Assembly (NCBI GenBank): GCA_021771715.1
Contig: JAETOO010000006.1
Location: 62,001 to 126,000 of the forward strand
Length of the DNA stretch: 64,000 bases
Direction: 5' to 3'
Source: Oscillospiraceae bacterium
GTDB taxonomy: Bacteria; Bacillota; Clostridia; Lachnospirales; Lachnospiraceae
The notes under the pieces were generated by a model. That model searched no databases. It worked only from the letters and a program-made list of their open reading frames with translations, and was not told where the DNA came from. Positions 11,932 to 27,580 of this stretch are shown piece by piece. Made by a program: the position numbers and the translations under genes. Numbering within the stretch: position 1 is the stretch's first letter; each line of letters opens with the position of its first letter.

Positions 11932-12891
11932 TCACTCAATTTTTTCGACCCGGCACTCTTTCTCGCCCGATTTTCCCCGCCGCTCAATCCGCTTCGAGAT
12001 CAGATACCGCGGCCGGCCCTTGACTTCCTCGTAAATTTTCGCGATGTAGTAGCCGATGATGCCCAGACTGATCATGATGATGCTGCCGATGATCAGAATC
12101 AGCAAAATCACGGTCGTAAAGCCCTCCACCGCGTGCCCGGTGAAATAGCGCACGAGAGACTCGATGCCCAGAACGATCGCCAGCAGGAAGACAAAGACTC
12201 CGGCCACCGTCACGCACTGCATCGGCACGGTGGAAAAGGCGACGATATTCTTGACGGCATATTTGATCAGAGAGGTGGTCGACCACTTCGATTCCCCCTC
12301 GGTGCGCTCCTGCACATCGAACTCGACCGAGGCGGTGCGGTAGCCGATCCACGACGAGAGCGCGCGGAAAAATACATTGCGCTCCGGCAGCGAGAGCAGC
12401 GCGTCAACGGCCCTGCGGTCGAGCAGCTTGAAATCCGAGGCGCGCGTCATATCAATCTTCACTGCACCCGAGATAATCCGGTAGAACAGCCCGGCACTCG
12501 CCCGGTGCAGCGCGCTCTCCTTGCCGCGGCTGCGCTTCACGCCCTCGATCACCTCGTAGCCCTCCGTCCACAGACGGTACATCTCGATGAGCGTCTCCGG
12601 CGGGTGCTGCAGGTCGCAGTCCATCACCGCGCAGCAGTCGCCGGACGCGCCGGCCAGCCCTGCGAGCATCGCCGACTCTTTCCCGAAATTGCGCGAAAAA
12701 TGAATCCCTGTCACGTTCGGATTCCGCCCCGCCGCCCGCTCGATCTCCTGCCACGTCGCATCCTTCGAGCCGTCATCGACGAAAACCAGCTCATACGCAA
12801 TCCCCGCTCCCGCAAGAATCCCGTCGAGCGTGTCCGCCGCCTTCTGAATCATTTTTTCTTCATTGTATGCCGGTAAAATTACAGAGAGCAT
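11932..12891 (-). CDS. GtrB/DPM1-like polyprenyl-phosphate glycosyltransferase
   Basis: A 319-residue GT2 enzyme. The N-terminal GT-A domain shows SVILPAYNEE, VDDGSKD and the DCDLQHPP metal-binding segment. Two membrane helices follow (about residues 215-240 and 255-285). This is the layout of enzymes that move a sugar from a nucleotide to undecaprenyl phosphate at the inner face of the membrane. It is the last gene of the glycopolymer operon and may supply a lipid-linked sugar for decorating the polymer outside the cell. The start at 12891 follows GAAAGAGGGG. Confidence 0.88.
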   Translation of the reverse strand: MLSVILPAYNEEKMIQKAADTLDGILAGAGIAYELVFVDDGSKDATWQEIERAAGRNPNVTGIHFSRNFGKESAMLAGLAGASGDCCAVMDCDLQHPPETLIEMYRLWTEGYEVIEGVKRSRGKESALHRASAGLFYRIISGAVKIDMTRASDFKLLDRRAVDALLSLPERNVFFRALSSWIGYRTASVEFDVQERTEGESKWSTTSLIKYAVKNIVAFSTVPMQCVTVAGVFVFLLAIVLGIESLVRYFTGHAVEGFTTVILLILIIGSIIMISLGIIGYYIAKIYEEVKGRPRYLISKRIERRGKSGEKECRVEKIE

Positions 12892-12917: not shown

Positions 12918-14885
12918 TTAAATTTCCCCGATGCCGGATTCCGTCTCCGCATCCTCCGCGAGCCGGAACTCTGTGTATGCGCCCAGGTCCGTCAGCACGA
13001 TGCTGTGGCTCGTGCGGCGGTGGCTCACGGGGATCATCTGCATGTAATCCCCGTACAGATACGTCAGATATTTGTCGTATTCCTTGGGCACCGGGAACGC
13101 GTAGCCCTCGAACTCCACGTAGACCGCTTCGTCCAGCCACGCCTTCGGGAAGGGGCCGCGCTTGAGATTGCGACCCATGCCGTCGTAGAGATACTCCGTG
13201 CGGCGCTTTTTGAAGAAGGTCAGCGACTTGTTCTGCGCCCACTCGGCGAACCGCATCGGCACCAGGTACTTCGCCTTGTCCACAATCTTGCAGATCACCG
13301 GGTGGTTGCCGCCGCTCTTGATGTCCGTGTTTCCCCATTTATTGAACACAACCGAGCGCGTCAGCATCGTCACCATCAGGTGCAGCTTCTGCGACCACTT
13401 GTGGTTGCCGGTCCGGTCATGCGAGAGCACATCAAAGAAGATCCCGTTGTGCAGCTCCATAAAGTGTCCGGTAAACTCCGTCGCAAACATCGTGTTATTG
13501 ATCCGCAGCTTCGTAAACGGGTTGTGATTGCCCTTCTCCGTCGTCGGGAGCTGCATGAAAATGTTGTCCGGCAGCTCTTTTTGCACCACCGCCTGGAACC
13601 GGTCGTAGTCCTCGCGCATCATCATGACATCCGCGTCGTCATCCCACGGGATGAACCCGTGATGGCGGATCGCGCCCAGCAGCGTCCCACCCGCGAGAAA
13701 ATATTTGATATCGTACTTTCTGCAGATCCGGTCGATCTCCAGCAGATAGCCGAGCAGGATCTTCTGCACCTTCTCGAGCTTGCCAAGGTACGTATTGTCA
13801 AAAATGAAGACCTCCCCGGTGTTCTGAAGGCATTTCACGAGAATGATCAGGCCATCCTCCATCGAGACCGAAGGCACAAAACCATAGTGCTCGATGAGCT
13901 GCGTATTCAGCAAAATGCCTGGCTGCGCAGAAAGCCCGAAATTATCATCCACGCCCACGCCCTGCCTATCTGCGCCCGACAGCTTTCCTCCGCCCGCCGA
14001 CATGCGCAGCTTGCACTGCGCCGGGAAGTTCTGATAGAGCATCACGGCCAGCTCGGCCGCCGATTTGTCTGAGTCCGGCCCCTTCACGTTAAAAATTTTA
14101 TTTTCCGGGCACACCGTCAGCACAAACTGGAGCGCGGTCAGCACGTCATGGATACAGACATACGAATCCCGGTCCGGGAGCAGCTGCAGCTCGATCTCCG
14201 ATCCGGAAGCCGTCTTCTCCGCCAGCCGTATGGCCGTGTGATTTTGCATCGGGATGCACGGGCCGTAGATCTTCGCCGTGCGCAGAATATTGCACGCCCT
14301 GCCGGCAGCCTTCGCGGCGGAAACCAGAATCCCCTCCATCGCCTGCAGCAAATATTGCGCAGAAAAAGCTCCGTCCGACACCGCTGCAGTCCCGGACTCG
14401 TACTCAGACATCATAAATTCTGCCGCGCCGTCCCCGCGGACCCGCCCGTAGACTCTGCCGTCCGAGAGCAGCAGGATGCGCTTGCAGTTCACCCGGCAGG
14501 CCGCCTCGACAAGCCGCCCGAACTGTTCCAGATATTCCATGCGCTCCAGCACCGTTCCCGGAATCTCACAGCAGCACAGTCCGGTCAGGATCACATAATC
14601 CGCCTCCGCAGCCGCAAACGACTGCTCCGTAAACAGATGCGTCACCGCGATGCGCCCTTCTTCTCCGTCTGCCGCCGACAGCTCCCCCTCCACCGCGCGA
14701 ACTCCGAGCTTCTTCTCGTCATTCCACGCCATAAAGGACCACGCGATCGACTCCTGCAGATCCGGCTGACTGCCTGCGAGCAGGATTTTTGCACCCTTCA
14801 GCTTCTTCGGCGGAATCAGCTCCGACCGAACCGCGGCCTGCGCCCAGTCCAGCTCAAATTCATTTAAAAAATCACGAAGTAACAT
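12918..14885 (-). CDS. Fusion of a degenerate SDR/epimerase domain with a LicD phosphotransferase
   Basis: A 655-residue two-domain protein. Residues about 30-345 have an extended-SDR outline (GAKILLAGS, SDGRVYG, ILRTAKIYGPCIP) but lack the GxxGxxG loop, and the catalytic YxxxK reads YLLQA (178-182), so it is probably not an active dehydrogenase. From about residue 375 comes a LicD nucleotidyltransferase-fold domain with AGGTLLGAIRHHGFIPWDDD (398-417). LicD proteins transfer phosphocholine or other phospho-alcohols from a CDP carrier to surface glycans. The gene lies 8 bases after another degenerate SDR gene. The SDR part may be a scaffold for the cytidylyltransferase or the active epimerase of this cluster; that is inference. 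Confidence 0.85.
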   Translation of the reverse strand: MLLRDFLNEFELDWAQAAVRSELIPPKKLKGAKILLAGSQPDLQESIAWSFMAWNDEKKLGVRAVEGELSAADGEEGRIAVTHLFTEQSFAAAEADYVILTGLCCCEIPGTVLERMEYLEQFGRLVEAACRVNCKRILLLSDGRVYGRVRGDGAAEFMMSEYESGTAAVSDGAFSAQYLLQAMEGILVSAAKAAGRACNILRTAKIYGPCIPMQNHTAIRLAEKTASGSEIELQLLPDRDSYVCIHDVLTALQFVLTVCPENKIFNVKGPDSDKSAAELAVMLYQNFPAQCKLRMSAGGGKLSGADRQGVGVDDNFGLSAQPGILLNTQLIEHYGFVPSVSMEDGLIILVKCLQNTGEVFIFDNTYLGKLEKVQKILLGYLLEIDRICRKYDIKYFLAGGTLLGAIRHHGFIPWDDDADVMMMREDYDRFQAVVQKELPDNIFMQLPTTEKGNHNPFTKLRINNTMFATEFTGHFMELHNGIFFDVLSHDRTGNHKWSQKLHLMVTMLTRSVVFNKWGNTDIKSGGNHPVICKIVDKAKYLVPMRFAEWAQNKSLTFFKKRRTEYLYDGMGRNLKRGPFPKAWLDEAVYVEFEGYAFPVPKEYDKYLTYLYGDYMQMIPVSHRRTSHSIVLTDLGAYTEFRLAEDAETESGIGEI

Positions 14886-14893
14886 AGCTTCCC

Positions 14894-16423
14894 TTACTTT
14901 CCAAGTCTGTCCACTTTCTCTGTATCAGTAACAATCGCGATCGGCGCAAGCGGCGAGCTCCCATCCGCAGCCTCCTCATAGCCGCGCCCGGCCGCTCGTT
15001 CTGCGGCAAATCTTCCGGCAAACAAATCGGCAGACTGTCCGGCTGGTGATCCGGCTGGCTGTCCGGCCGTTTCCGGCCCGCATTCCGGATATCCGCCTGC
15101 AAGTTTCTGCTGCGCAGCCTCTTTCCCGGATATCCCGAATCTGCTGACAACAGTTGCCTCTTCCTTCGCAGTATCATTTTCTTTTGCCCGGAACCGGACA
15201 ATCTTTCCCGATTTCTGACTGCTCGTCATCGTTTTCCATCCGTCCTGCAAGCCTGATTGGCTGCCCGGCTGCGACTCTCGCTCGTCCTGATTCCCCGAAA
15301 TCATTTCCCGCTCATCCTGCCAGTCTCCCTGGCTGCCCGGCATCGTCCTTTGTTCACTCCACTGTTCCGCTTCACTGCCTGGCACCGATTTCCGCCCGCC
15401 ATGCAATCCCATCTGGCTGCCCGGCATCATTTTCTGTTCGTCCTGCAGGCCCGCTTGACTGCCCGGCTGCGGTTCCTGTCCATCCTGCAAGCCCGCTTGA
15501 CTGCCCAGCTGCGGTTTCTGTCCATCCTGACTCCCCAGAATTGTTCCCCGCTCGTCCTGCCAGTCCATCTGGTTGCCCGTCGCCGACCCTTTCGTCGCGC
15601 TTCCCCGCTGCCGCCGGTTCATCTGCGCGATATAACTATGTTCCGTGTCGTAAGAGATATCTTCCGCCTCTGCGTCTGCCCTCTTCTCTCCGGGCAGGTT
15701 GTAGATCTGCGCATCCTCCCCGTACAGCAGCACGCGCGCGCACGCCTCGAGCATCTCGGACGGCACCGCCTCATCCGCTCCCAGTGCGCCCATTCGCACG
15801 ACCCGCACCGGAAGCTTCTGCTCCGCCGCGAGCTGACATGCGAAATGCTCCGCCGTCCGCAGACACTGCGCCGCAGCATCGTCGCAGTCCGTATGGCTGA
15901 GATAGCCCAGCTCCGCCTCCTTGAGCGCATGCGGCACACCAAAGCATTTTCCGTAGACCTCATTCCCGGAGATCACCAGCACAGCCTCAGGATGCACTGC
16001 GGTGAGCGCCCGAAGCTGCGGAAGCAACCCAAGCAGTTCCCGCCAGTCCTCTCCTGCGGCCTTCACACTCCCGGGTGCCTTGCGCCAGCTATAGTGCGCA
16101 GCCGGGTCGTCAAACGGCGCCTCCCAGTCGGGATTCCCCCTCCTCGATGGCCGCCGCGCAGCCTTTCCGTCGCCTGCGCCGCCCCCGGTCATCCTGCCAC
16201 CGGACGGTCTTGCGAACAGCAGCACATAGTCTCCGTCCAGCACATTTTCCACTCCGTCCACCACCCGGAAGCCTGCCCCGGTGCGGCTGCTGACCCCCGC
16301 CAGGCTCTGAAAAAATGCCTGGTATTCCGGCCCGTCCACGCCTGCGAGCACAAGCCTTTTTCCTGCAAACCGCTGCCATATGTTATCCTGCGCTTCCATA
16401 CCGCGCACCTTGTCCTGCTCCAT
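14894..16423 (-). CDS. Degenerate SDR-like protein with 14-residue tandem repeats
   Basis: A 509-residue protein I cannot assign to a known function. Residues 20-245 keep an SDR outline (GKRLVLAGVDG, VLVISGNEVYG, VRVVRMGALG, then YNLPGE), but the catalytic Tyr and Lys positions read A and R. Residues about 283-400 are tandem units of mostly 14 residues beginning GSQ. A Gly/Ala/Pro-rich tail follows (residues 440-480). It sits between the canonical SDR gene, across a 506-base gap, and the SDR-LicD fusion, so all three look like products of one duplication series. ATG at 16423 follows GAGGAG. No signal peptide or membrane segment is seen. Confidence 0.7.
   Translation of the reverse strand: MEQDKVRGMEAQDNIWQRFAGKRLVLAGVDGPEYQAFFQSLAGVSSRTGAGFRVVDGVENVLDGDYVLLFARPSGGRMTGGGAGDGKAARRPSRRGNPDWEAPFDDPAAHYSWRKAPGSVKAAGEDWRELLGLLPQLRALTAVHPEAVLVISGNEVYGKCFGVPHALKEAELGYLSHTDCDDAAAQCLRTAEHFACQLAAEQKLPVRVVRMGALGADEAVPSEMLEACARVLLYGEDAQIYNLPGEKRADAEAEDISYDTEHSYIAQMNRRQRGSATKGSATGNQMDWQDERGTILGSQDGQKPQLGSQAGLQDGQEPQPGSQAGLQDEQKMMPGSQMGLHGGRKSVPGSEAEQWSEQRTMPGSQGDWQDEREMISGNQDERESQPGSQSGLQDGWKTMTSSQKSGKIVRFRAKENDTAKEEATVVSRFGISGKEAAQQKLAGGYPECGPETAGQPAGSPAGQSADLFAGRFAAERAAGRGYEEAADGSSPLAPIAIVTDTEKVDRLGK
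15224..15577 (-). repeat. Intragenic tandem repeat, 42-bp and 30-bp units (14 and 10 residues)
   Basis: Eight successive units each begin GSQ, GSE or GNQ, as in GSQAGLQDGQEPQP, GSQAGLQDEQKMMP and GSQMGLHGGRKSVP. Six have 14 residues and two have 10. The frame is kept throughout, so copy-number change would alter protein length without disrupting it. Confidence 0.9.
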
Positions 16424-16929: not shown

Positions 16930-18003
16930 TTACCTTTCTGCCCAGCCGCGCATGCTCTCCATCAGCCGCGCAAACATCTCCGGCAGGTCAACCTGCGCCT
17001 GCCAGCCGAGCGCATGCAGTTTCTCCGCATTCACGAGCATCCGCGAGGTCGGCGCGTAGCCGAACTGATTGACATCCTCCGGGATGTCAAAGACCAGCCT
17101 CGAACCGCTCCCGGGATAATTGCGCACGAGCATTTCCGCCATCTGGCGGATCGTCCCGAACGTCGCCTCATTGGAGACATTGTACGCCTCGCCCGAGGTT
17201 CCCCGCAGCAGAATCGTCAGCAATCCGCACACCGCATCCGACGTGTAACAGTAGCAGTGCGCCTTGCTTCCGTCCGTGTGCAGCACAATGTCCTGGCCGC
17301 CGAGGATGCTGCGCGCAAACTGCGCAAATACACGGTTCTCGCTCTTCGCGATCCCCGCCCCGAAGGTCTGCGCGAGCCGCGCCGTCTTCACCGGCACGCC
17401 GTACTCATGTGCATAGGCCCCGCAGAGCCCCTCCGCCATCCGCTTGCTCTCCGAGTAGCTGCTGCGCACCTGCAGCGGGTCAATATAGCCATAATCCTTC
17501 TCCCGCACGATATAGTGCGCGTCGTCGGCCACACCGTACGCCTCCATCGAGGAGAGGTAGACCATCGACTTCACCTGCTTCTCCCTCGCAAGCTCGAGCA
17601 GATGCTCCGTGCCCGCCAGCGTCGTCCGGATCGTCTCGACCGGATGATCCACAAACTCTTTCGACGCAGTCAACCCTGCCCCGTGGATGATGTAGTCCAC
17701 CGGACCGTCGACCGTGACCGGAGACAGGATGTCACACAGCACCAGCTCTGCCCCGCAGCCCAGAAATCCTGACAGCTCTCGCTCCGCCTTTTCCCGGCTG
17801 CGCGCCACGGCCAACACCTGGATGTCCAGCCCTCTGTACTCGCTCGCGCACACGAGCGCTCTTACGAGAAGCCCGCCGATCAGCCCGGTCGCCCCTGTCA
17901 CCAGCACCCGGCTGCCGCGCAGCTGCTCCCAGTCGATCTGTTCATCCTGTGCAATGCGTTCAAGATCCTCCTGCAGCACCCGATCCTCTACCCAAGTTTT
18001 CAT
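16930..18003 (-). CDS. NAD-dependent epimerase/dehydratase (extended SDR)
   Basis: A 357-residue canonical extended SDR: GATGLIGG at residues 37-44, the SSMEAYG serine region, and the catalytic YSESK. It would reduce, oxidise or epimerise a nucleotide-linked sugar or polyol in the cytoplasm. It lies 74 bases downstream of the TarI-like cytidylyltransferase and shares an N-terminal helix plus Rossmann layout with the two degenerate SDR proteins further downstream. With the cytidylyltransferase and LicD it probably makes and transfers a CDP-activated alcohol; the precise substrate is unknown. Confidence 0.88.
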   Translation of the reverse strand: MKTWVEDRVLQEDLERIAQDEQIDWEQLRGSRVLVTGATGLIGGLLVRALVCASEYRGLDIQVLAVARSREKAERELSGFLGCGAELVLCDILSPVTVDGPVDYIIHGAGLTASKEFVDHPVETIRTTLAGTEHLLELAREKQVKSMVYLSSMEAYGVADDAHYIVREKDYGYIDPLQVRSSYSESKRMAEGLCGAYAHEYGVPVKTARLAQTFGAGIAKSENRVFAQFARSILGGQDIVLHTDGSKAHCYCYTSDAVCGLLTILLRGTSGEAYNVSNEATFGTIRQMAEMLVRNYPGSGSRLVFDIPEDVNQFGYAPTSRMLVNAEKLHALGWQAQVDLPEMFARLMESMRGWAER

Positions 18004-18077: not shown

Positions 18078-18893
18078 CTATGCTTCCTCTTTGCCGCCGC
18101 TCCCCGCGGTTCCCTCCGCCGCTTCCTTCCTGCGGTACCGGTTCATCTTCGCCGCCAGCCGGTTCGTCAGCCCGAAGCCGAACGCCTGCTCGTTTTCCTT
18201 GTACTGCAGCAGCGCGCGGAACATGTAGACATCCTCCGGCGTCGTGACCTTGATGTTTCCCCGGTTTCCGATCACCATGTGCGGCTTCCGGCCGAGCGCG
18301 TTGTAGATCGTGCAGGCGTCCACCATATTTTCATACCGGCTCTCGGTCGCGCGGATCATCTCGTGCGCCTCGATGATATCCTTCAGATAAAAGCTTTGCG
18401 GTGCCTGGGCCGAATAGCTCTCCTTGCGCAGCGGCAGACTGTCCACGCTGCAGCCGTCGCTGCTGAGCAGAATCGTCTCATAGCACAGTGTCGACGTAAT
18501 CGCGCTGCCATATTCCTTCACAGCCTCAATATTTTCGCTGATCACCTCATACGCGACCACCGGGCGGACCCCGTCATGGATCAGCACGATCGAGTCCTCC
18601 GGATTCTCCTCCGCCGCTTTTTTGAGCGCATTGTAAATCGAATCCTGCGCCGTCTCGCCGCCCGGCACGATGGCCGCCAGCTTGTCAATCCGGTAGTCCA
18701 GCACGAGCTGCTGGGCATACCTTATATAATCTGCATTCATCGCCAGATAAATCCGGTCGATCTCCTCATGCTCCTCGAACAGCTGCAGCGTGTGGATCAG
18801 AATCGGCTTCCCATTGATCTCCAGAAACTGCTTCGGCACGCCCGCGCCCATCCTCACACCGCTGCCTCCCGCAAATATAATCGCAATATTCAT
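18078..18893 (-). CDS. TarI/IspD-like cytidylyltransferase
   Basis: A 271-residue IspD-superfamily enzyme with the CTP-binding motif FAGGSGVRMG...PKQF at the N-terminus, HDGVRP in the middle, and TTPEDVYMF near residue 230. Family members join CTP to ribitol 5-phosphate (TarI) or methylerythritol 4-phosphate (IspD). The context with LicD and TagF-like genes favours a CDP-polyol for wall polymer synthesis. The start at 18893 follows ACGGAGGA; the longer frame to 18938 has no site. A Gly/Ala/Glu-rich tail closes the protein. Confidence 0.85.
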   Translation of the reverse strand: MNIAIIFAGGSGVRMGAGVPKQFLEINGKPILIHTLQLFEEHEEIDRIYLAMNADYIRYAQQLVLDYRIDKLAAIVPGGETAQDSIYNALKKAAEENPEDSIVLIHDGVRPVVAYEVISENIEAVKEYGSAITSTLCYETILLSSDGCSVDSLPLRKESYSAQAPQSFYLKDIIEAHEMIRATESRYENMVDACTIYNALGRKPHMVIGNRGNIKVTTPEDVYMFRALLQYKENEQAFGFGLTNRLAAKMNRYRRKEAAEGTAGSGGKEEA

Positions 18894-19121
18894 ATCCGTC
18901 CTCCGTTTTCCTGCTGCATCCGCAAAAATCCTCTGCATCTATCTCCTGCTTCTATCCAGCATTCTGTATACGTTCCTGCAATTTCGTTTTCTTCACATGC
19001 CTCTCTGGATGCATTACAAATTCGTTCGACACTGTCGAACCTTTCCCAAATCGCAGAAGCGTCTGTATGGATCCTCTGACTCCACTTTTCGTTTTTCAAC
19101 GCGGTAATTTCTTATTCTCCA

Positions 19122-19226
19122 TCAGCCAGCCCGACCAGTCTCAGAATCCGCTCCGATTTCATTCCGCGCTGCCGGGGTATAGCGGTTTCCCGCTTTCCAG
19201 CCCGACCAGCCTCAGAATCCGCTCCG
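19122..19226 (-). repeat. Echo of the TagB-like gene's 3' end (71-bp spacing)
   Basis: The last coding stretch for ERILRLVGL (around 19200-19226) recurs 71 bases further on as ERILRLVGLADGE plus stop, outside the gene. The copies differ at few bases, so this is a recent tandem duplication that carried the gene's tail beyond its stop codon. Confidence 0.8.
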
Positions 19227-20304
19227 TCGCGTGGCCGTCGCATGCGCCAACGTACTTCTCGCAAAAGGCTTTGATCTCCGGCTCCCGCCGCTGTGCACAG
19301 GCTGCGCTTTCCCGAATTGCCCCGGCGAGCCTATCGCCGTCCTCGACAATCTCAAACGGCATCTCCCTGTAGTCAAGATAAAACCCACGCTGTTTTTCGT
19401 ACTCCCGCAGATCCGGTGCAAAGAGCAGCAGCGGTTTCCCATAGAGCAGATAATCAAACATCACCGAGGAATAATCCGTAATCAGCAGATCCGCGACGGC
19501 GAACAGCTCCTCGGTCGGGATCTCGCAGTTCGACACCCTGCCGTGCGCGTCAATGTGCGGGTGCGCTTTGATCACCACGTGCCATTCCCCGCCAAGCTCG
19601 CGGGCCGCGGCACGCACCTCCTCCAGCCCCGCAAGATACGGGCGTCCCGCATTTCCGCGGAAGGTCGGCGCCCAGACGACGATCCGTTTCCCCTTCGCCT
19701 CCAGGTGCAGCCGGTAAAACTGTTCCCGGCACCGCGCATTCCAGGCCGGATCAAAATAGAAATCCGTCCGGCTGATCCCCGTCGCCCGGATCCGCTCCGC
19801 CGGCAAACGCAGCGCCCGCGCGTGCACCGGGACACAGACCTCGGCGCTCATCGTCAGATACGAATAATTTCCGAACAGATCGCCGTGGTAATGCTTCGGA
19901 ATGTCATCCCCCGCGTCAAACGCGATCCGCTTCATCAGCCCGCAGGAATGCCAGAGCTGCACCAGCGTCGTCTCCGGCCTCTTTTTGCACGACGATGCGG
20001 GCAGGAAATAATCACAGATAAACACGTACTCCGCCGTCGCGTACGCCCGCATAAACCGCACCAGAAACCGCGCCATCTGCCCGAATCCCACACTGCCGAA
20101 ATCCGCGATAAAGAGCTCCGGCTCGCGCCCCTGTGCCCTCAGCGCCTCGTACATCCTGCGCATCGAAAACGGCATCTCGGCATGGTGCGCGTCCGCCATC
20201 AGGATGCGCCCCTGCTCCACCGGCCTGCGGCGGTACACAAAATAAATAAGCGGCAGCACCACGTTCTGCAAAAGCATCTTAATACACTGTTTGATCCGAA
20301 ACAT
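19159..20304 (-). CDS. TagB-like CDP-glycerol/CDP-polyol phosphotransferase
   Basis: A 381-residue Glyphos_transf protein with the family motifs QLWHSCGLMKR, WAPTFRG, IKAHPH and TDYSSVMFDYLLYGKP. TagB-type enzymes add the first polyol-phosphate unit to the lipid-linked primer; TarF and TarL relatives extend the chain. The start at 20304 is chosen for AAAGGAGG seven bases upstream. An N-terminal hydrophobic stretch (LLQNVVLPLIYFVY) probably seats it on the membrane. It follows the larger TagF-like gene by 91 bases. Confidence 0.87.
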   Translation of the reverse strand: MFRIKQCIKMLLQNVVLPLIYFVYRRRPVEQGRILMADAHHAEMPFSMRRMYEALRAQGREPELFIADFGSVGFGQMARFLVRFMRAYATAEYVFICDYFLPASSCKKRPETTLVQLWHSCGLMKRIAFDAGDDIPKHYHGDLFGNYSYLTMSAEVCVPVHARALRLPAERIRATGISRTDFYFDPAWNARCREQFYRLHLEAKGKRIVVWAPTFRGNAGRPYLAGLEEVRAAARELGGEWHVVIKAHPHIDAHGRVSNCEIPTEELFAVADLLITDYSSVMFDYLLYGKPLLLFAPDLREYEKQRGFYLDYREMPFEIVEDGDRLAGAIRESAACAQRREPEIKAFCEKYVGACDGHATERILRLVGLESGKPLYPGSAE

Positions 20305-20395
20305 CCCGCCGCCTCCTTTCATTTGCACCCATCGCAGCCACTTTTTCCTCATGTCCTCCACCGCTCATCACAGCGTTTTCCGGTTCACTCATCTT

Positions 20396-23263
20396 TTACC
20401 TGCGGCTCTTCTGATACTCCCACGCATCCTCAAAGATCCGCCTGCAATTTTCATGGTCGTCGAACGCGAAAAACGCATCCTCCCGCTCGCGATAGAGGGG
20501 CTTCAGCGCACAGCCCGTCTCCAGATATCCGCACAGCACGGACACCAGCTCCTCCGTCTCTGTGCAGATCTCCCCAAAGCCCTGCGTCTCGTACTCAAAG
20601 CCGCCCTCCACGTAGTGCGGCGGCAGCTTTGGCGGGTGAAAATAGACCACCGGCTTTCTCATATACGCAAAGTCGAACTGCACGCCGGAGTAATCCGTCA
20701 CCATCAGGCTCGACTCCGTCAAAAGCTGCTCATAGTTCGCCTCTGTCGCCGCCAACAGCCGCACGCAGCCATCCACCCGGAAATCACCCTTCTGCGCACT
20801 GATGACCGGGTGCAGAAGGTATACGATCTCATATCCTGCGCGTTCCGCCGCCTGCTTCAGGCGCTGATTTTGCAGCAGCCCCTGGAAAATTCTGAAATAA
20901 TCTGTGTCCTTAAAATCCGGATTGTACGGCCGCGCCGCTCCCATGACCGGCGGCATCGCAATGTACGCGCGCCACGTCGGCGTAATCAGGATCTGCTTCT
21001 TGTCCCGGTTCACCAGCCCGTCATAGCGCGGCACTCCGGTCAGACGCAGCACCTCGCTGTCATAGCCGTACGCCGGAGCAGACAGATTCTCGATCTCGCA
21101 CGGAGACGCACAGTAATAGCGCTTGTTGTTGTTCACGATCCGATTGGAGTCAAACGTCAGATCCTGCACGGACAACCCGTGCTGAATACACGTGTTGACT
21201 GCGCGCAGCCGGTCCTGCACGAAGCGGACCTCCCACTTCGAAAATCCGCAGAAGCCGTGCACACTGCTGTGCGTCGCAAACACCATCGACGCGTGCAGGT
21301 ACATCAGCCGCTGCTGCAGGCTGCGGTACAGAAGCGGCCGCAGACCCTCCCGGCGCATCCGGGCACAGTCCGGCGCATCCTCCCGGATCACATACCCCGG
21401 CGTGATGCCTTCCGACCGGCGCGTCAGCATGTACCTGTAAAAATATTCGCCGCAGTCGCCGCCCTTGTACAGCTTGTCAAAGGTCAGCCAGATATTTTTC
21501 CGCCCATAGACCGGATACGTGAGCCAATACAGCACACGTACCAGAAACATCTGCTTCGAGCCGTAGGATGCCCGGAGTATCTCGTGCAGCAGCCGCAGCT
21601 CCTGACGAATCCGCCCGCCTCTCCCCGCGCGCTGCAGGACAATACCTTTTCTGCCGCCCTCGCGCAGCCGCGCCATATAGCGGTCAAAGCACCAGTAGGA
21701 CTGCTTCAGCATCCGTGTCAGCTTTGCCTCATAGTCAATCGTCACGACCGGGAGCACCTGCTCCCTCTCCCCGTCCGTCAGACGAAATTCAAGCTCCTCC
21801 CGCTCACCCAGCTCTGCGACCGGAATTTCGACCGCAAACGTATCGCGGGGGGCCAGCGGCTCCCGGAAAAACTCCACTCCGCGATATCGCTCTGTCCTGC
21901 AAAAGCCGTACTCCCTGCCGTTTCGGAACACCTTCAGCGCAAAATGTTCCGTCACAAAACGGTCGACAGAGCAGTCGATCCTCCAGCTTCCGCGCTCGCA
22001 TTCCATCAGATCCAGTGTCACAACCGGGACAAACTCACCGAGCTGCCAGCCATTCCCGTACTTCACGCACATGAGTGCAGACCACACTGAGTAGACCAGC
22101 CTCCGCTCTGGATGCACTGACTCCTCCGGCGTAATCAACTCGTTCGAAATCTGCGCCAGCACGCCGCGGCAGCCGTCCAGAAACTGCTCCAGCTCCGCAC
22201 CCGTCAGTACGCCTCCGCTCCGGTTCCCCCGATTTACGAGAAAACAGCTGCGCAGCTCCGACACAAGCTGTGCCTGCAAAATCAATGGTGCGCCTCCGTC
22301 CGGGCAGGCGGCAAGTGCTGCCTCCCAGCGGTGCACCTGCGCCAGATACCAGTCCGGCTCCAGCCACCCCGGACAGAACCCCTCCAGCTCCGGCAGCACG
22401 ATCTCCCCGTGAAAATACGCGTGCTTCGCGTATACGGGCTTCCCCTTCCGGCCGATCACGCGGCACAGCAGAAGATCATCCCAGCACGCGGCCAGACGCT
22501 CCACAGTGAGCGCACCGCCCTCCTGCCCTGCGCCATTCGTCCGCGGCTCTCCTTGGGCCGCTTGTTCTCCTGCATTGCTCCCTTGGCATCTTACCAGTCT
22601 GTCTTCCTCATTCTCCTTCGGCCACGATCCGCTCCGTATGGCTTCTTCTCCTGCCTCTCTCTCTTTGCTTCCTGCAGGCGTCTCTCCCACACCACTCTCT
22701 GACCACGGTTTTCTCCGAGCGGTTTCCTCGAGCACCGCGCGGACTGCTCCCGCACGCACGAGCATGCCGCGCATGCACGCCGGAAGCTTCTGCACCTGGC
22801 TGGCGCTCTCGACCGACACCAGCGCCTCACCTGCATCTGCCGCAGCGGTCTCCTTGATTTTCGTCCGGCTCGTCACGTTCGGCAGCAGCACGACATCCGC
22901 CTGTCCCTCATACTTCTTCAGACACGCGCACACGCGCCGCAGTGCGTCCCCGTGATAGTATTCCCCGGCGCGAATCACCGTCACAAACTCCGCATCCGGC
23001 ACTGCAATCCGATCCATGCGCGTCGTGCCGGCCCACTGCGCTGCACTATCAGAACATGCCGCCCCATTCAAAGACACCGCATTGTCCAGGCGTGCAATCC
23101 CCTCCGAATGCACTGCACCGCCTGAACCCGCCGTCCCGTCCGGCTGCCGCCCGATCACCTCCACCCTGACCTGCCCGCAGAGCTCCGGGTCGTCCGTCCC
23201 GAGCGACGCCATCGTCCTTTTCAGTTTTTCCTCGTCATCACCAAGAATGATTACCGTGACCAT
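20396..23263 (-). CDS. TagF-like poly(polyol-phosphate) polymerase with GT2-like N-terminal domain
   Basis: A 955-residue protein, about 200 residues longer than B. subtilis TagF. Residues about 1-190 resemble a worn GT-A domain (MVTVIILGDDEEKLKR, VTVIRAGEYY) without a clear DxD. A low-complexity Gly/Glu-rich insert covers about residues 190-260. The C-terminal half is a Glyphos_transf domain: NIWLTFDKLYKGGDCGEYF, QHGLSVQDL, TPTWRAY, LLHPVI and TDYSGVQFDFAYMRKP. It would polymerise CDP-activated polyol phosphate at the cytoplasmic membrane. The start at 23263 follows AGAGGGA; MSERQ further upstream is spaced too closely to its GGAGG. Confidence 0.85.
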   Translation of the reverse strand: MVTVIILGDDEEKLKRTMASLGTDDPELCGQVRVEVIGRQPDGTAGSGGAVHSEGIARLDNAVSLNGAACSDSAAQWAGTTRMDRIAVPDAEFVTVIRAGEYYHGDALRRVCACLKKYEGQADVVLLPNVTSRTKIKETAAADAGEALVSVESASQVQKLPACMRGMLVRAGAVRAVLEETARRKPWSESGVGETPAGSKEREAGEEAIRSGSWPKENEEDRLVRCQGSNAGEQAAQGEPRTNGAGQEGGALTVERLAACWDDLLLCRVIGRKGKPVYAKHAYFHGEIVLPELEGFCPGWLEPDWYLAQVHRWEAALAACPDGGAPLILQAQLVSELRSCFLVNRGNRSGGVLTGAELEQFLDGCRGVLAQISNELITPEESVHPERRLVYSVWSALMCVKYGNGWQLGEFVPVVTLDLMECERGSWRIDCSVDRFVTEHFALKVFRNGREYGFCRTERYRGVEFFREPLAPRDTFAVEIPVAELGEREELEFRLTDGEREQVLPVVTIDYEAKLTRMLKQSYWCFDRYMARLREGGRKGIVLQRAGRGGRIRQELRLLHEILRASYGSKQMFLVRVLYWLTYPVYGRKNIWLTFDKLYKGGDCGEYFYRYMLTRRSEGITPGYVIREDAPDCARMRREGLRPLLYRSLQQRLMYLHASMVFATHSSVHGFCGFSKWEVRFVQDRLRAVNTCIQHGLSVQDLTFDSNRIVNNNKRYYCASPCEIENLSAPAYGYDSEVLRLTGVPRYDGLVNRDKKQILITPTWRAYIAMPPVMGAARPYNPDFKDTDYFRIFQGLLQNQRLKQAAERAGYEIVYLLHPVISAQKGDFRVDGCVRLLAATEANYEQLLTESSLMVTDYSGVQFDFAYMRKPVVYFHPPKLPPHYVEGGFEYETQGFGEICTETEELVSVLCGYLETGCALKPLYREREDAFFAFDDHENCRRIFEDAWEYQKSRR

Positions 23264-23338
23264 ACGCAGCCGTCCCTCTTCTTCCTGTCTCTCTGACATC
23301 CCTCCGCACGCCGAGCACATCTTCCGAATTTCCGTTCC

Positions 23339-25249
23339 TTACCGAACCCTGCTCTCTTCCTCGACTGCCGCAAGCGCCGCCCGGATCACCTTGTCCATAT
23401 CATAATACTTGTACTGCCCGAGGCGGCCGCCGAAGATCACATCCTCCTCCTTCTCGGCGAGCTCGCGGTACTTCTCGTACAGCGCACCGTTCTTCTCATC
23501 GTTCACCGGATAGTACGGCTCGATGCCCGGCTTCCACTCCGTCGAGTACTCGCGCGAGATGATCGTGTAGTCCTTCGGGTGCTCCCGCTCCTCCTCCGGC
23601 GCGAAATGTTTGTGCTCGATCACCCGCGTGTACGGCACCGCGCGCTCCGTGTAGTTGATCACCGCATTTCCCTGATAATTCTCCTCCTCGACCCGCTCCG
23701 TCTCAAACCGCACCGTCCGGTACTCGAGATGCCCGTAGCAGAAGTCAAAATACTCGTCGATCATGCCGGTGTAGACCACCTTGTGAAACATCCCCGGATG
23801 CTCCTTGCGGTACGCAAAAAAGTCCGTCCCCGTCATCACGTCGATATTGTCGAGCAGCTTCTCGACCATCTGTGTGTAACCGCCGACCGGGATCCCCTGA
23901 TACCGGTCATTAAAATAATTATTGTCATACGTGAACCGCAGCGGCAGCCGCTTTATGATGAACGACGGCAGCTCCGTGCAGTCTCTGCCCCACTGCTTCT
24001 CCGTGTAGCCCTTGATCAGCTTCTCGTACACATCCCTGCCGACGAGCGAGAGCGCCTGCTCCTCCAGATTCTTCGGCTCCGTAATGTTCAGATCCGCGAT
24101 CTGCTCCCGGATCCGCTCCCTGACCTCCTGCGGCCGTTTGAGCCCCCAGAGCTTGCTGAACGTATTCATATTGAAGGGGAGGTTGTACAGCTCATCCTTG
24201 TAAATCGCGACCGGAGAGTTGATGTAGTTGTTAAACTCCGTCAGCTTCGTCACGTACTGCCAGACCTCTTTATCGCTCGTGTGGAAAATGTGTGCGCCGT
24301 ACTTGTGCACCTGAATCCCGTCGACATCCTCCGTGTAAATATTTCCGCCGATGTGATCCCGCTTGTCGATCACGAGACAGCGCTTGCCGCGCTTCGTCAT
24401 CTCGCACGCAAACACCGCTCCGTACAGGCCGGCGCCGACCACGAGGTAATCGTACGGCTTGCCCTCCTTGCGCAGCTCCTCGCGCTTTTTCTCCTTTTTC
24501 TCCCTGCGCAGCCGGTCCTGCTCCGTCCGGTACGCCTCGCAGACCACCTCGGACGGCCCGGCCATCCGCACCCGGCCCTTGTCGAGCCACAGTGCATTCT
24601 GGCACAGATTCTTGACATTCTGGATGTTGTGCGACACAAACAGCAGCGTCGTGCCGCCCGCGAGCATCTGCTGCATCCGCTCGTTGCAGCGGCGGCGGAA
24701 ATTGTAATCGCCGACCTCGAGCACCTCATCCACGATCAGGATATCCGGATTCACGACCGTCGCCACGGCAAACCCGAGCCGCGCCTTCATACCGGACGAA
24801 AAATTCTTGATCGGAGAGTCGAGGAACTTTTTCAGATTCGCAAACTCGACAATCTCGTCAAAATGCGCCTCCATAAACTCCCGCGAGTGCCCCAGCACCA
24901 GCCCGTTCAGGAAAATGTTCTCCCGTCCCGTCAGTTCCCCGTCAAACCCGGCGCCCAGCTCGATCAATGGCGAAATCCGCCCCTTCGTCTTCACCTCACC
25001 CCGGTACGGCTGCAGGATCCCGCTGATCACCTTCAGAAGCGTGGACTTCCCCGCTCCGTTCGTCCCGATCAGCCCCCAGGATTCCCCCTTTTTCACCTTC
25101 AGGGACACATCCTGCAGCGCCAGGAACTCCTGGAACATCAGCTCGTGCTTCGCCAGCTTGATCGCATACTCCTTCAGATTGTCCACCTTCTGGTTCGCCA
25201 GATTAAAGCGAACCGACACCTTATCCACATCAATCACGTAATCGCCCAT
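23339..25249 (-). CDS. Fusion: TagH/Wzt-like ABC ATPase plus UDP-galactopyranose mutase
   Basis: A single 636-residue frame carries two complete enzymes. Residues 1-242 are a polysaccharide-export ATPase: Walker A GTNGAGKST (62-70), signature FSSGMKARLGF (150-160), Walker B DILIVDEVLEVG (169-180) and switch SHN (206-208). A 23-residue charged linker (RLRREKKEKKREELR) leads into UDP-galactopyranose mutase from about residue 266: FAD motif GAGLYG, GGNIYTEDVDG, KYGAHIFHT, KQWGRD and RFTYDNNYFNDRYQGIPVGG. It lacks the C-terminal carbohydrate-binding domain of some Wzt proteins; the mutase takes its place. The start at 25249 follows GGAGGA. It couples UDP-Galf supply to export of the polymer, which is inference. 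Confidence 0.93.
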   Translation of the reverse strand: MGDYVIDVDKVSVRFNLANQKVDNLKEYAIKLAKHELMFQEFLALQDVSLKVKKGESWGLIGTNGAGKSTLLKVISGILQPYRGEVKTKGRISPLIELGAGFDGELTGRENIFLNGLVLGHSREFMEAHFDEIVEFANLKKFLDSPIKNFSSGMKARLGFAVATVVNPDILIVDEVLEVGDYNFRRRCNERMQQMLAGGTTLLFVSHNIQNVKNLCQNALWLDKGRVRMAGPSEVVCEAYRTEQDRLRREKKEKKREELRKEGKPYDYLVVGAGLYGAVFACEMTKRGKRCLVIDKRDHIGGNIYTEDVDGIQVHKYGAHIFHTSDKEVWQYVTKLTEFNNYINSPVAIYKDELYNLPFNMNTFSKLWGLKRPQEVRERIREQIADLNITEPKNLEEQALSLVGRDVYEKLIKGYTEKQWGRDCTELPSFIIKRLPLRFTYDNNYFNDRYQGIPVGGYTQMVEKLLDNIDVMTGTDFFAYRKEHPGMFHKVVYTGMIDEYFDFCYGHLEYRTVRFETERVEEENYQGNAVINYTERAVPYTRVIEHKHFAPEEEREHPKDYTIISREYSTEWKPGIEPYYPVNDEKNGALYEKYRELAEKEEDVIFGGRLGQYKYYDMDKVIRAALAAVEEESRVR

Positions 25250-25364
25250 GTCTCCTCCGAACTCCACGAAAATAACACCGCTTTTTCCCGATACGACCAT
25301 ACAAATCCGCTTACAGCCAGTCGTATCATTCTCACTGCCATCAGGCCATGCAAGCCATTTCCAC

Positions 25365-26159
25365 TCAAATGTACAGAATAAATTTATCCTTCGCCCTCTG
25401 GAACGTCCACACGCCGAACGCCAGCATCACAAACGCCAGAATCCAGCCGCCGAAGAACACCCGCGGTCCCGGCAGCCGCCCGTAGTAGATCAGATCGCGG
25501 AACTGTGCCACATAGTAGTAGAGCGGGTTGAAGCCCTTGATCAGCACGACCAGCCACTTCATGTCCGCGAGCACCTCGAGCGGGTACATGATCGGCGTCA
25601 GATACAGCCAGGCCGTAAGCACCGCGTTGTAAATATACTGCACGTCCCGGAAAAACACGGTCATCTGCGCGAGGAAAAATCCAAGCCCGCAGCAGAAAAT
25701 GTACAGCTGCACAATCACGAGCGGACACAGCAGGAACTCCCAGTAGAACGGCGCCCGCGTCACCACCATGACGACCAGCAGCGCCCCCATCGAGAGCACC
25801 ATGTCGACCATACAGCTCGTCACTTTTGCAAAGGTGAAAATGTACTTTGGAATATAGACCTTTTTCAGAAGCGCAGCGTTGCCGGTCACGGACTTCATCG
25901 CGTTGGTTGTGCTCGCCTTGAGAAAGTCATACAGCATGCGGCCCGTGAACAGATAGACCGGAAAATTCTTGATATTTTTGCTGAACAGATTGGAAAATAC
26001 CAGTGTCAGGACGATCATGATCAGCAGCGGATTCAGCACGCTCCACAGATAGCCCAGAAAGCTCCTCCGGTACTTGAGCTTCAGATCTCTCTGCACCAGC
26101 TCCCACACCAGATCCTGGTATTTGATAAAGGTTTTGATACGATATTTCAGCAGGCTCAT
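25365..26159 (-). CDS. Polysaccharide ABC export permease, TagG/Wzm type
   Basis: A 264-residue ABC2-type permease with six membrane segments; the N-terminal stretch RDLKLKYRRSFLGYLWSVLNPLL is typical of TagG and Wzm. It forms the membrane channel for the fused ATPase encoded 115 bases downstream. It is the first gene of the glycopolymer operon, about 70 bases after a promoter at 26230-26258. The start is ATG at 26159 with AAAAGGAGAG upstream. Confidence 0.92.
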   Translation of the reverse strand: MSLLKYRIKTFIKYQDLVWELVQRDLKLKYRRSFLGYLWSVLNPLLIMIVLTLVFSNLFSKNIKNFPVYLFTGRMLYDFLKASTTNAMKSVTGNAALLKKVYIPKYIFTFAKVTSCMVDMVLSMGALLVVMVVTRAPFYWEFLLCPLVIVQLYIFCCGLGFFLAQMTVFFRDVQYIYNAVLTAWLYLTPIMYPLEVLADMKWLVVLIKGFNPLYYYVAQFRDLIYYGRLPGPRVFFGGWILAFVMLAFGVWTFQRAKDKFILYI

Positions 26160-26791: not shown

Positions 26792-27580
26792 ATGAGGACC
26801 ATCACAGAAATGAAAGAGCGTGTCCGGGAGCTCGGCTACTCGTATGCGATGCTCTCAAAGCTCTCCGGTGTCCCGCTCGGCACGGTGCAGAAGATTTTCG
26901 GCGGCGTCACGGCCTCGCCGCGCTACGATACGCTGCGCGCGCTCGAGGACGCGCTGTACCCGCACATCAACTGCGGCATAGCGGAGAGCCTCCCTTCCTG
27001 GGGAACAGGGGAAAAACAGCCCGGCTCCTACACCCTGGAGGATTATTACCGGCTTCCGGACGACCAGAGGGTAGAACTGATCGACGGATACTTCTACGAT
27101 ATGAGCGCGCCCTCCACCGCGCATCAGATCATCTGCGGGCATCTCTACGCCAGGCTGCTCGCCTACGTGTCGTCAAAAAAAGGGGCCTGCCTGCCCCTGC
27201 TTTCCCCGGTGGATGTCCAGCTCGACTGTGATGACCGCACAATGATACAGCCGGACGTGCTGGTCGTCTGCGACCTGGGCAAGGTGATCAACCGCTGTGT
27301 CTACGGCGCACCGGATTTTGTCATCGAGATCCTCTCCCCGTCGACGCGGAAAAAGGACCTCACCCTGAAGCTGAATAAATATATAAATGCAGGTGTGCGC
27401 GAATACTGGCTCATCGACCCGCAGCACCGCTCCGTCCTCGTCTACGATTTCATCGCGGACCCCTGGCCGACCCTCTACGGCTTCGACGCAAAGATCCCGG
27501 TCGCCATCTGGGGCGGAGACTGCGTGATTGACTTCCAGGAGGTCGATGACGCAATCCGGTTCCTGTACGAAAAAGAGTAA
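26792..27580 (+). CDS. HTH domain fused to a Uma2-family (DUF820) PD-(D/E)XK nuclease
   Basis: A 262-residue protein. Residues about 5-55 form an XRE-like helix-turn-helix (YAMLSKLSGVPLGTVQKIFGG). Residues about 80-250 are a Uma2 domain with VELIDGYFYDM, the aspartate in IQPDVLVVCD and the E-x-K-like core VIEILSPSTRKKD, then AGVREYWLIDP. The start has AGGAGG nine bases upstream. The fold is a restriction-type nuclease, but cellular roles of Uma2 proteins are poorly known. The N-terminal HTH suggests a DNA-targeted or self-regulating form. It is a lone plus-strand gene. Confidence 0.85.
   Translation: MRTITEMKERVRELGYSYAMLSKLSGVPLGTVQKIFGGVTASPRYDTLRALEDALYPHINCGIAESLPSWGTGEKQPGSYTLEDYYRLPDDQRVELIDGYFYDMSAPSTAHQIICGHLYARLLAYVSSKKGACLPLLSPVDVQLDCDDRTMIQPDVLVVCDLGKVINRCVYGAPDFVIEILSPSTRKKDLTLKLNKYINAGVREYWLIDPQHRSVLVYDFIADPWPTLYGFDAKIPVAIWGGDCVIDFQEVDDAIRFLYEKE

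Follow-up and report, generated by a model that had tools for sequence, protein, structure and literature searches.

The window analysed here, a stretch of 64,000 nucleotides from an Oscillospiraceae bacterium (Lachnospiraceae in the GTDB lineage; GenBank assembly GCA_021771715.1, contig JAETOO010000006.1, positions 62,001 to 126,000), carries a single gene in which a TagH/Wzt-type polysaccharide-export ATPase is joined in frame to a UDP-galactopyranose mutase (Glf). The fusion is real, conserved in its genus, and apparently undescribed, and can be regarded as a variant of the Wzt proteins that bear a C-terminal module. Our preferred reading, to which we assign a probability of about 0.58, is that the protein is a bifunctional subunit of a Wzm–Wzt exporter whose tethered mutase would be active and would supply UDP-galactofuranose (UDP-Galf) locally. 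A preliminary description made from the letters alone had placed a complete ATPase and a complete mutase in one frame at 23339..25249; the analysis recovered exactly these coordinates, with the gene on the minus strand. Taken as a whole, that description stands as regards a conserved two-module fusion in a polymer-export cluster, and fails as regards the replacement of a glycan-binding domain. The features of the gene and its surroundings are listed in Table 1.

Table 1. Modules of the wzt-glf fusion gene and genes of the surrounding cluster, in positions of the window.
Feature	Position	Strand	Details
wzt-glf fusion gene	23339..25249	(-)	636 aa + stop; ATG at 25249, stop at 23339-23341; conserved in genus
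TagH/Wzt-type export ATPase module, residues 1-240	24530..25249	(-)	ABC_tran; nearest solved chains TarH, RfbE/Wzt, TagH
Charged linker, residues 241-265, mostly within predicted continuous helix 233-262	24455..24529	(-)	AlphaFold model, linker alignment
UDP-galactopyranose mutase (Glf) module, residues 266-636	23342..24454	(-)	TIGR00031 above cut-off; full-length alignment with E. coli Glf 1i8t; active-site columns intact
wzm, ABC-2 permease partner	25365..26159	(-)	115 nt upstream of fusion; ABC2_membrane; distant match to galactan Wzm model, below cut-off
Large protein with C-terminal CDP-glycerol glycerophosphotransferase (TagF-like) domain	20396..23320	(-)	Glyphos_transf 619-965; 18 nt after fusion
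TagF/TarL-like polyol-phosphate transferase	19159..20361	(-)	Glyphos_transf
TarI-like D-ribitol-5-phosphate cytidylyltransferase	18078..18938	(-)	NF001183 subfamily, 182.8 bits against cut-off 166
NAD-dependent epimerase/dehydratase	16930..18003	(-)	PF01370
Protein of unknown family	14894..16423	(-)	No Pfam/NCBIfam match; shorter proteins match in related clusters L065-L067, L072, L073
LicD-family phosphotransferase with weak epimerase-like N-terminal half	12918..14885	(-)	PF04991 LicD 388-612; PF01370 19.9 bits, just below cut-off
Family 2 glycosyltransferase	11932..12891	(-)	PF00535; nearest NCBIfam models PgfS and ArnC-like, both below cut-off

Within the encoded protein, the Pfam search returned ABC_tran (residues 45–176), NAD_binding_8 (270–336), and GLF (410–615), and Wzt_C (PF14524) was absent. 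Over residues 266–631, the mutase half, which contains the FAD-binding GxGxxG motif, scored 439.2 bits with the NCBIfam equivalog model TIGR00031 (UDP-GALP_mutase), above the model's cut-off of 303.75. The ATPase motif residues were identical in all covering rows of an alignment of 44 distinct fusion ORFs taken from the fetched loci, including Gly62, Asn64, Gly65, Gly67, Lys68, Ser69, and Thr70 of Walker A, the signature Ser151–Leu158, Asp174 and Glu175 of Walker B, and His207 of the H-loop. These motifs, together with the adjoining gene for an ABC-2 (Wzm) permease, identify the module as a Wzt/TagH export ATPase. It scored below the cut-offs of two TagH equivalogs (NF010065, 214.9 against 538; NF010066, 192.7 against 320) and of the galactan Wzt equivalog NF050108 (209.1 against 400) and is therefore described as TagH/Wzt-like and assigned to neither. 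A 600-residue open frame running antisense to the fusion gene (23579–25381, plus strand) is probably a by-product of G+C-rich coding.

The preliminary description had named an overlooked stop or frameshift near 24457–24525 as a possible source of error, and none was found there. The strongest check is conservation across homologues, which excludes a sequencing error: genome scans, on which all distribution counts rest, detected an uninterrupted fusion in 41 of the 47 genus genomes, the window's own included, and several other genera, further Lachnospiraceae among them, carry it as well, with Parablautia sp. Marseille-Q6255 (L102) and Porcincola intestinalis (L110) among the named carriers. An assembly artefact was rejected on the same grounds, leaving a negligible probability that an assembly or sequencing error joined two genes. 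Porcincola was described from pig-gut isolates (PMC7738495). In the remaining genus genomes, a stop codon (G026) or an N-gap (G036) lies inside the linker, a contig end falls within the Glf half (G044), or no fusion match was returned by the scan of the 47 genomes (G004, G024, and G030). The classification of G036 as an unfused genome was rejected, the apparent break being the N-gap. Three further genera with the fusion (G226, G153, and G309, the last with its start cut by a contig end) were identified among 299 family genomes, in which 298 genera were sampled. Scans of 392 genomes of the order, 391 of the class, and 398 of the phylum yielded no additional full-length open fusion at the strict thresholds of 1e-185, 1e-160, and 1e-150, respectively, at which distant fusions would be missed. 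In G085, from another family of the order, wzt and glf are adjacent and unfused. A collection of named genomes yielded at least 13 fusions in 80 kept loci, several of them from genomes already included in the genus scan, and the scan of viral contigs returned a single distant Glf and nothing else. Two copies of the fusion, each 87% identical to that of the window, were observed on two contigs of one genome (G020:C109 and G020:C110). Within the open-licence literature searched, we found no description of a Wzt–Glf fusion, in line with the earlier statement that no characterised protein of this design was known.

The linker between the two modules is nearly constant in length, spanning 25 residues from the Tyr240 column to the mutase start in 37 of the 44 distinct fusions, 26 in four, and 27 in three. 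Its mean pairwise identity is 0.41 (43 of the 44 sequences) versus 0.78 for the ATPase and 0.76 for Glf. The linker is rich in charge, with K, R, E, and D together making up 62% of it. AlphaFold predicted a single helix (residues 233–262) directly before the first mutase strand at residue 266, with a mean pLDDT of 80–95 per ten-residue block over residues 231–260, in a model built from 15 sequences (two of them from the residue-changed clade described below) that has an overall mean pLDDT of 74.6 and a pTM of 0.59 and carries no dimer information. This helix begins in the region matching the Wzt hinge helix (residues 226–240 in A. aeolicus). In the ATP state of A. aeolicus Wzt, contact with the glycan-binding dimer is made through this hinge helix (PMC9445017), so that the linker could by analogy pass ATPase movement to a mutase dimer, or the reverse. 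Regarding translation, the Glf boundary of the window's gene offers no ribosome-binding site paired with a canonical start codon; a separate Glf is therefore unlikely to be made from it, and an internal start was rejected for this gene. Some start codon occurred in the scanned region in 30 of the 44 fusions. In four of these 30, one was preceded by a ribosome-binding-site-like stretch, and in none of the four did it fall within the six codons before the Glf start.

The genomic context of the fusion is largely maintained in the genus. The wzm gene was situated upstream of the fusion in all 13 mapped genus loci, interrupted fusions included, the TagF gene downstream in 12 of the 13, and the TarI and epimerase genes in 10 of the 13; contig ends cut two of the loci, affecting TagF, TarI, and the epimerase in L071 and TarI and the epimerase in L064, and L070 (G026) bears different genes at the TarI/epimerase position. 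In other genera, the neighbours of the fusion are partly different. Relatives of the LicD-family protein in L058, L068, and L069 comprise 305–328 residues and match its LicD half only, and the protein at 12918–14885 (minus strand) may represent a second gene fusion in the same cluster. Just past the wzm end of the cluster, a Uma2-family gene lies on the opposite strand (26792–27580, plus strand). No dedicated galactofuranosyltransferase was identified in the cluster, and the family 2 transferase is most like enzymes that transfer sugars to polyprenyl phosphate. The presence of wzm, TagF, TarI, and LicD makes a teichoic-acid-like polymer probable, and we infer that the exported product is probably a polyol-phosphate chain of this type carrying galactofuranose.

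The identity of the mutase half with E. coli Glf (1i8t) is 61%, and with the C. jejuni enzyme 4mo2 it is 59%. At all 13 active-site columns checked, whose roles we take from the literature on these mutases, the window protein carries the residue common in unfused enzymes. The fusion is the only Glf found in its own genome, which is 97.7% complete. A fused Glf scored over the cut-off in 43 of the 47 genus genomes (G026 and G036 counted in), and in 25 of the 43 it was the only Glf to do so, one of the 25 (G009) also having a contig-end fragment below the cut-off. The fused copy is therefore the probable maker of UDP-Galf in those genomes, provided that the cells use UDP-Galf, and under the same proviso the window's own mutase is, judging from its sequence, probably the source of this precursor. 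A separate Glf over the cut-off accompanied the fused one in the other 18, comprising 13 of the 38 genomes with an unaltered site and all five with a changed site (Fisher p 0.0089, uncorrected for relatedness, the five forming one clade). A different sugar nucleotide, for example UDP-GalNAc, is improbable as the substrate of the mutase. Such a specificity is suggested by the UDP-GalNAc mutase of C. jejuni (4mo2), which was the best Foldseek match and the second-best sequence match, and is opposed by position 323, where the His/Arg difference is presumably a determinant of substrate specificity: the residue is His in the window protein and in all 44 fusions, as in E. coli Glf, and Arg in 4mo2.

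Some relatives of the window protein differ at residues that are otherwise fixed. Arg434, Tyr580, and Tyr615 are invariant in 38 unaltered fused rows and in 58 unfused rows, the latter chosen by similarity to an intact enzyme and thus biased against decayed unfused Glf. By alignment, they are equivalent to Arg170, Tyr311, and Tyr346 of E. coli Glf, which we take to be pyrophosphate-site residues. All three differ in L058, L063, L068, and L069 (genomes G036, G010, G015, and G040), which form one clade, and the same positions differ separately in L111 (RUG409); a separate alignment revealed the same three positions changed in L064 (G035). The first of the L058 changes, Arg to Lys, is conservative, and an insertion adjoins the Tyr580 column, where two alignments give different residues. 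When considering the 55 columns invariant in unfused rows, six to eight were changed in the four clade rows and 12 in L111, versus two, as both median and maximum, among unaltered fused sequences. The residue-changed forms retain the flavin motif together with Trp420, Arg542, and Arg609, and the altered clade contains inserted loops. The changed clade is nested within the intact fused clade (support 100), and the loss is therefore derived. L212, L155, L071, and L091 were left out of the residue count (105 to 101 rows), and the interrupted row of G026 was kept among the 38 unaltered ones; when added back, L212 and L155 retained all three residues, and the L091 row, covering 189 C-terminal residues only, differed at Tyr580 and agreed at Tyr615. 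Position Asn344 was rejected as a marker of loss because it varies among the unfused enzymes, 45 of the 58 having Asn.

Substitution rates indicate that the changed Glf half is still under purifying selection, though of a less tight kind: the six pairs among L063, L064, L068, and L069 had dN/dS values of 0.075–0.140 in the Glf half and 0.034–0.049 in the ATPase half, and the 25 closest unaltered pairs listed had 0.012–0.116 and 0.013–0.240, respectively, so that the Glf ranges overlap, with some dS values near saturation. Relative to its own ATPase half, Glf evolved at about 1.5–4 times the rate in changed pairs and about 0.3–2.1 times in unaltered pairs. Ordinary catalysis is probably not what preserves the fused mutase in the changed clade and in RUG409, and the conserved, putative pseudo-mutase versions make a non-catalytic role possible in some relatives. 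In RUG409 (L111:6001-9373), the changed fused mutase is followed about 1.2 kb downstream by the start of a separate glf gene, cut by the contig end, of which 72 residues are visible (69% identical).

The preliminary description had also proposed that the mutase took the place of a glycan-binding domain, a history that the nearest relatives of the ATPase do not support. Trees were built after removal of near-copies (at least 96% identity), which reduced the ATPase rows from 142 to 131 and the Glf rows from 121 to 105. The nearest unfused ATPases comprise about 243–271 residues and bear no added domain, the nearby exception seen being L179 with its enzyme tail, and in four of these nearest relatives (L057, L113, L191, and L192) a separate glf adjoins wzt. 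Unfused wzt and glf neighbours about 10–40 nt apart occur in five loci, namely G016:C20 (L057, 11 nt), G085 (L059, 33 nt), RGIG2157 (L113), G206 (L191), and G333 (L192), the ATPase of L059 being more distant in the tree than the other four. The window's own genome encodes two Wzt proteins with Wzt_C, 44% and 40% identical to the fusion ATPase; one of the two was placed in the tree and fell in a separate clade together with other Wzt_C proteins. Tail-less nearest relatives and adjoining glf genes therefore indicate that the mutase was added by the joining of neighbouring genes, glf to a tail-less wzt, and did not take the place of a glycan-binding domain.

Apart from L111, the fused rows of the Glf tree formed one clade (SH-aLRT 95), with the interrupted rows of G026 and G036 inside it. 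Two origins of the main fusion were considered, L111 having first been placed outside, and rejected: the best tree found with L111 constrained to lie inside had a higher likelihood and was not rejected (p-AU 0.865), making a single origin acceptable. In the best ATPase tree, all fused rows except L091 were located on one side of a branch with weak support (70). A single origin of the main fusion thus appears to fit both halves. Locus L091 (3414-5015; G016:C108) contains a Wzt–Glf frame with a distant ATPase type (45% identity) and a mutase without about 100 middle residues. The two halves point to different relatives. In its own tree, the ATPase is grouped with the unfused Wzt of G085 (support 100), which would be expected of a second, independent fusion, but the mutase half forms a very long branch within the clade of fused Glf. 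The locus may stem from a second fusion, from exchange of its ATPase half, or from a misassembly.

Other enzymes occupy the same position in related Wzt proteins. In L179:984-3284 (G327), a Wzt 65% identical to the window ATPase continues in frame into a nucleotidyltransferase and an APH-type kinase (767 aa); in L092:3458-5236 (G053), the frame includes a polysaccharide pyruvyltransferase (593 aa); and in L155:4055-6037 (Candidatus Anaerotruncus excrementipullorum), a proline-rich stretch leads to Acyl_transf_3. These three tails, picked from long-frame hits, correspond to three separate gains in the ATPase tree. Wzt_C tails were present in L002, L003, L186, L187, L189, and L190, and in Actinomycetota the frame of Wzt-type ATPases runs into S-layer homology (L129, L149) or CWB2 (L137) modules, which are normally extracellular. 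Among the matches listed, which cover 158 of the 299 family genomes, most frames were too short for a tail. The long open frames of G240, G335, G210, G105, G200, and G168 were rejected as tailed Wzt, proving tail-less on reading. As a tentative generalisation, the C-terminal end of TagH/Wzt proteins might have served repeatedly as an evolutionary socket for polymer-making or polymer-modifying enzymes, with some of the plugged mutases being conserved pseudo-enzymes that position or gate the exporter. If so, the exporter would double as a synthesis station.

In the mechanism that we favour, the exporter would be a Wzm–Wzt (type V ABC) transporter of a lipid-linked, teichoic-acid-like polymer, containing the fusion protein twice, along with two Wzm subunits. 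From each ATPase, a rigid helix would lead into a mutase module capable of catalysis. Bacterial Glf forms homodimers, and the two mutase modules would lie beneath the transporter, roughly at the site of the glycan-binding dimer of other Wzt proteins. UDP-Galp would be converted to UDP-Galf at the membrane, beside the transferases consuming it. The mutase equilibrium strongly favours UDP-Galp, and local production next to the consumer would therefore help. The intact active site, and the fact that no other Glf was found in the genome, agree with the earlier suggestion that the fusion could bring the supply of precursor to the exporter. The separate Glf in 13 of the 38 genus genomes with an unaltered fused mutase counts against tethering as the sole supply, which is therefore not always the only one. 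The linker stop of G026, the key residues changed in one clade and in RUG409, and the search of the cluster that identified no dedicated galactofuranosyltransferase also weigh against the favoured mechanism.

The main rival of local supply is a passive fusion, in which adjacent operon genes lost the intervening stop once, the halves work independently, and the joint brings nothing. The short spacing of unfused wzt and glf in five loci is what such an event would start from, and the single origin fitting both halves (AU p 0.865 for Glf, branch support 70 for the ATPase) and the position of the L091 mutase half inside the fused Glf clade agree with it. We consider it unlikely, if worth serious attention, in view of the near-constant linker length and predicted rigid helix, the purifying selection that persists where residues have changed, the other enzymes joined at the same position, and the grouping of the L091 ATPase with the unfused G085 Wzt, which fits a second fusion. 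A different role would be gating or recognition, whereby the mutase would sense a nucleotide sugar or bind the polymer and so control the ATPase, in the manner of the glycan-binding domain of other Wzt proteins, with catalysis secondary or lost; the preliminary description had likewise suggested that substrate level could gate export. The changes of Arg434, Tyr580, and Tyr615 in the four-member clade and L111, in spite of which the clade's Glf half is kept (dN/dS 0.075–0.140, six pairs), point in this direction, as does the separate Glf in 5/5 changed-site genus genomes versus 13/38 others. However, the window's own protein is intact at every checked catalytic column, and its genome yielded no second Glf. 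The inserted loops of the altered clade also fit relaxation or a new substrate, the Arg to Lys change of L058 is conservative, and at Tyr580, next to an insertion, the residue differs between alignments. Gating is thus quite improbable for the window protein and more plausible in its putative pseudo-mutase relatives.

Local supply by a tethered mutase would offer a genetically simple case for the open question of whether precursor synthesis, polymerisation, and export are physically coupled, the covalent tether making coupling addressable by splitting one gene. The presence of intact and residue-changed versions in one genus constitutes a natural experiment on catalysis versus scaffolding. To our knowledge, galactofuranose is absent from mammals. 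Since it is also described as an established binding partner of human intelectin-1 (PMC9441953), a galactofuranose polymer, if made by gut Lachnospiraceae, would be relevant to host recognition of commensals.

When compared to known systems, the stand-alone Glf of E. coli (1i8t) shares the checked active-site columns with the fused mutase at the identity given above and lacks a transporter module. In the Klebsiella O1/O2a galactan exporter, glf is separate. The TagH/TarH teichoic-acid exporter ATPases (PDB 7dd0, 6jbh, 9cfl) are among the closest by sequence and fold, and the TagF and TarI neighbours recall these systems, whereas the fusion falls below the TagH equivalog cut-offs and bears a mutase. 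Wzt proteins whose C-terminal module binds carbohydrate (A. aeolicus, PDB 8dku and 7k2t; E. coli O9a), the attachment of such a module being described in PMC11231755, have in common with the fusion the Wzm partner, the Wzt/TagH fold, and a module placed after the hinge helix. In contrast, the module here is a flavoenzyme rather than a jelly-roll glycan-binding domain, and the nearest Wzt relatives are without a module. In the mycobacterial galactan exporter, Wzm, Wzt, and Glf serve one polymer, as proposed here; PMC10951656 cites a proposal that an interaction of GlfT2 with Wzm–Wzt sets galactan size and reports that, in density fractions, the Glf of M. smegmatis was found among cytosolic enzymes. 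The mutase of that system is a protein of its own, and here it is covalently joined to the exporter, the mycobacterial case thus representing a non-covalent parallel.
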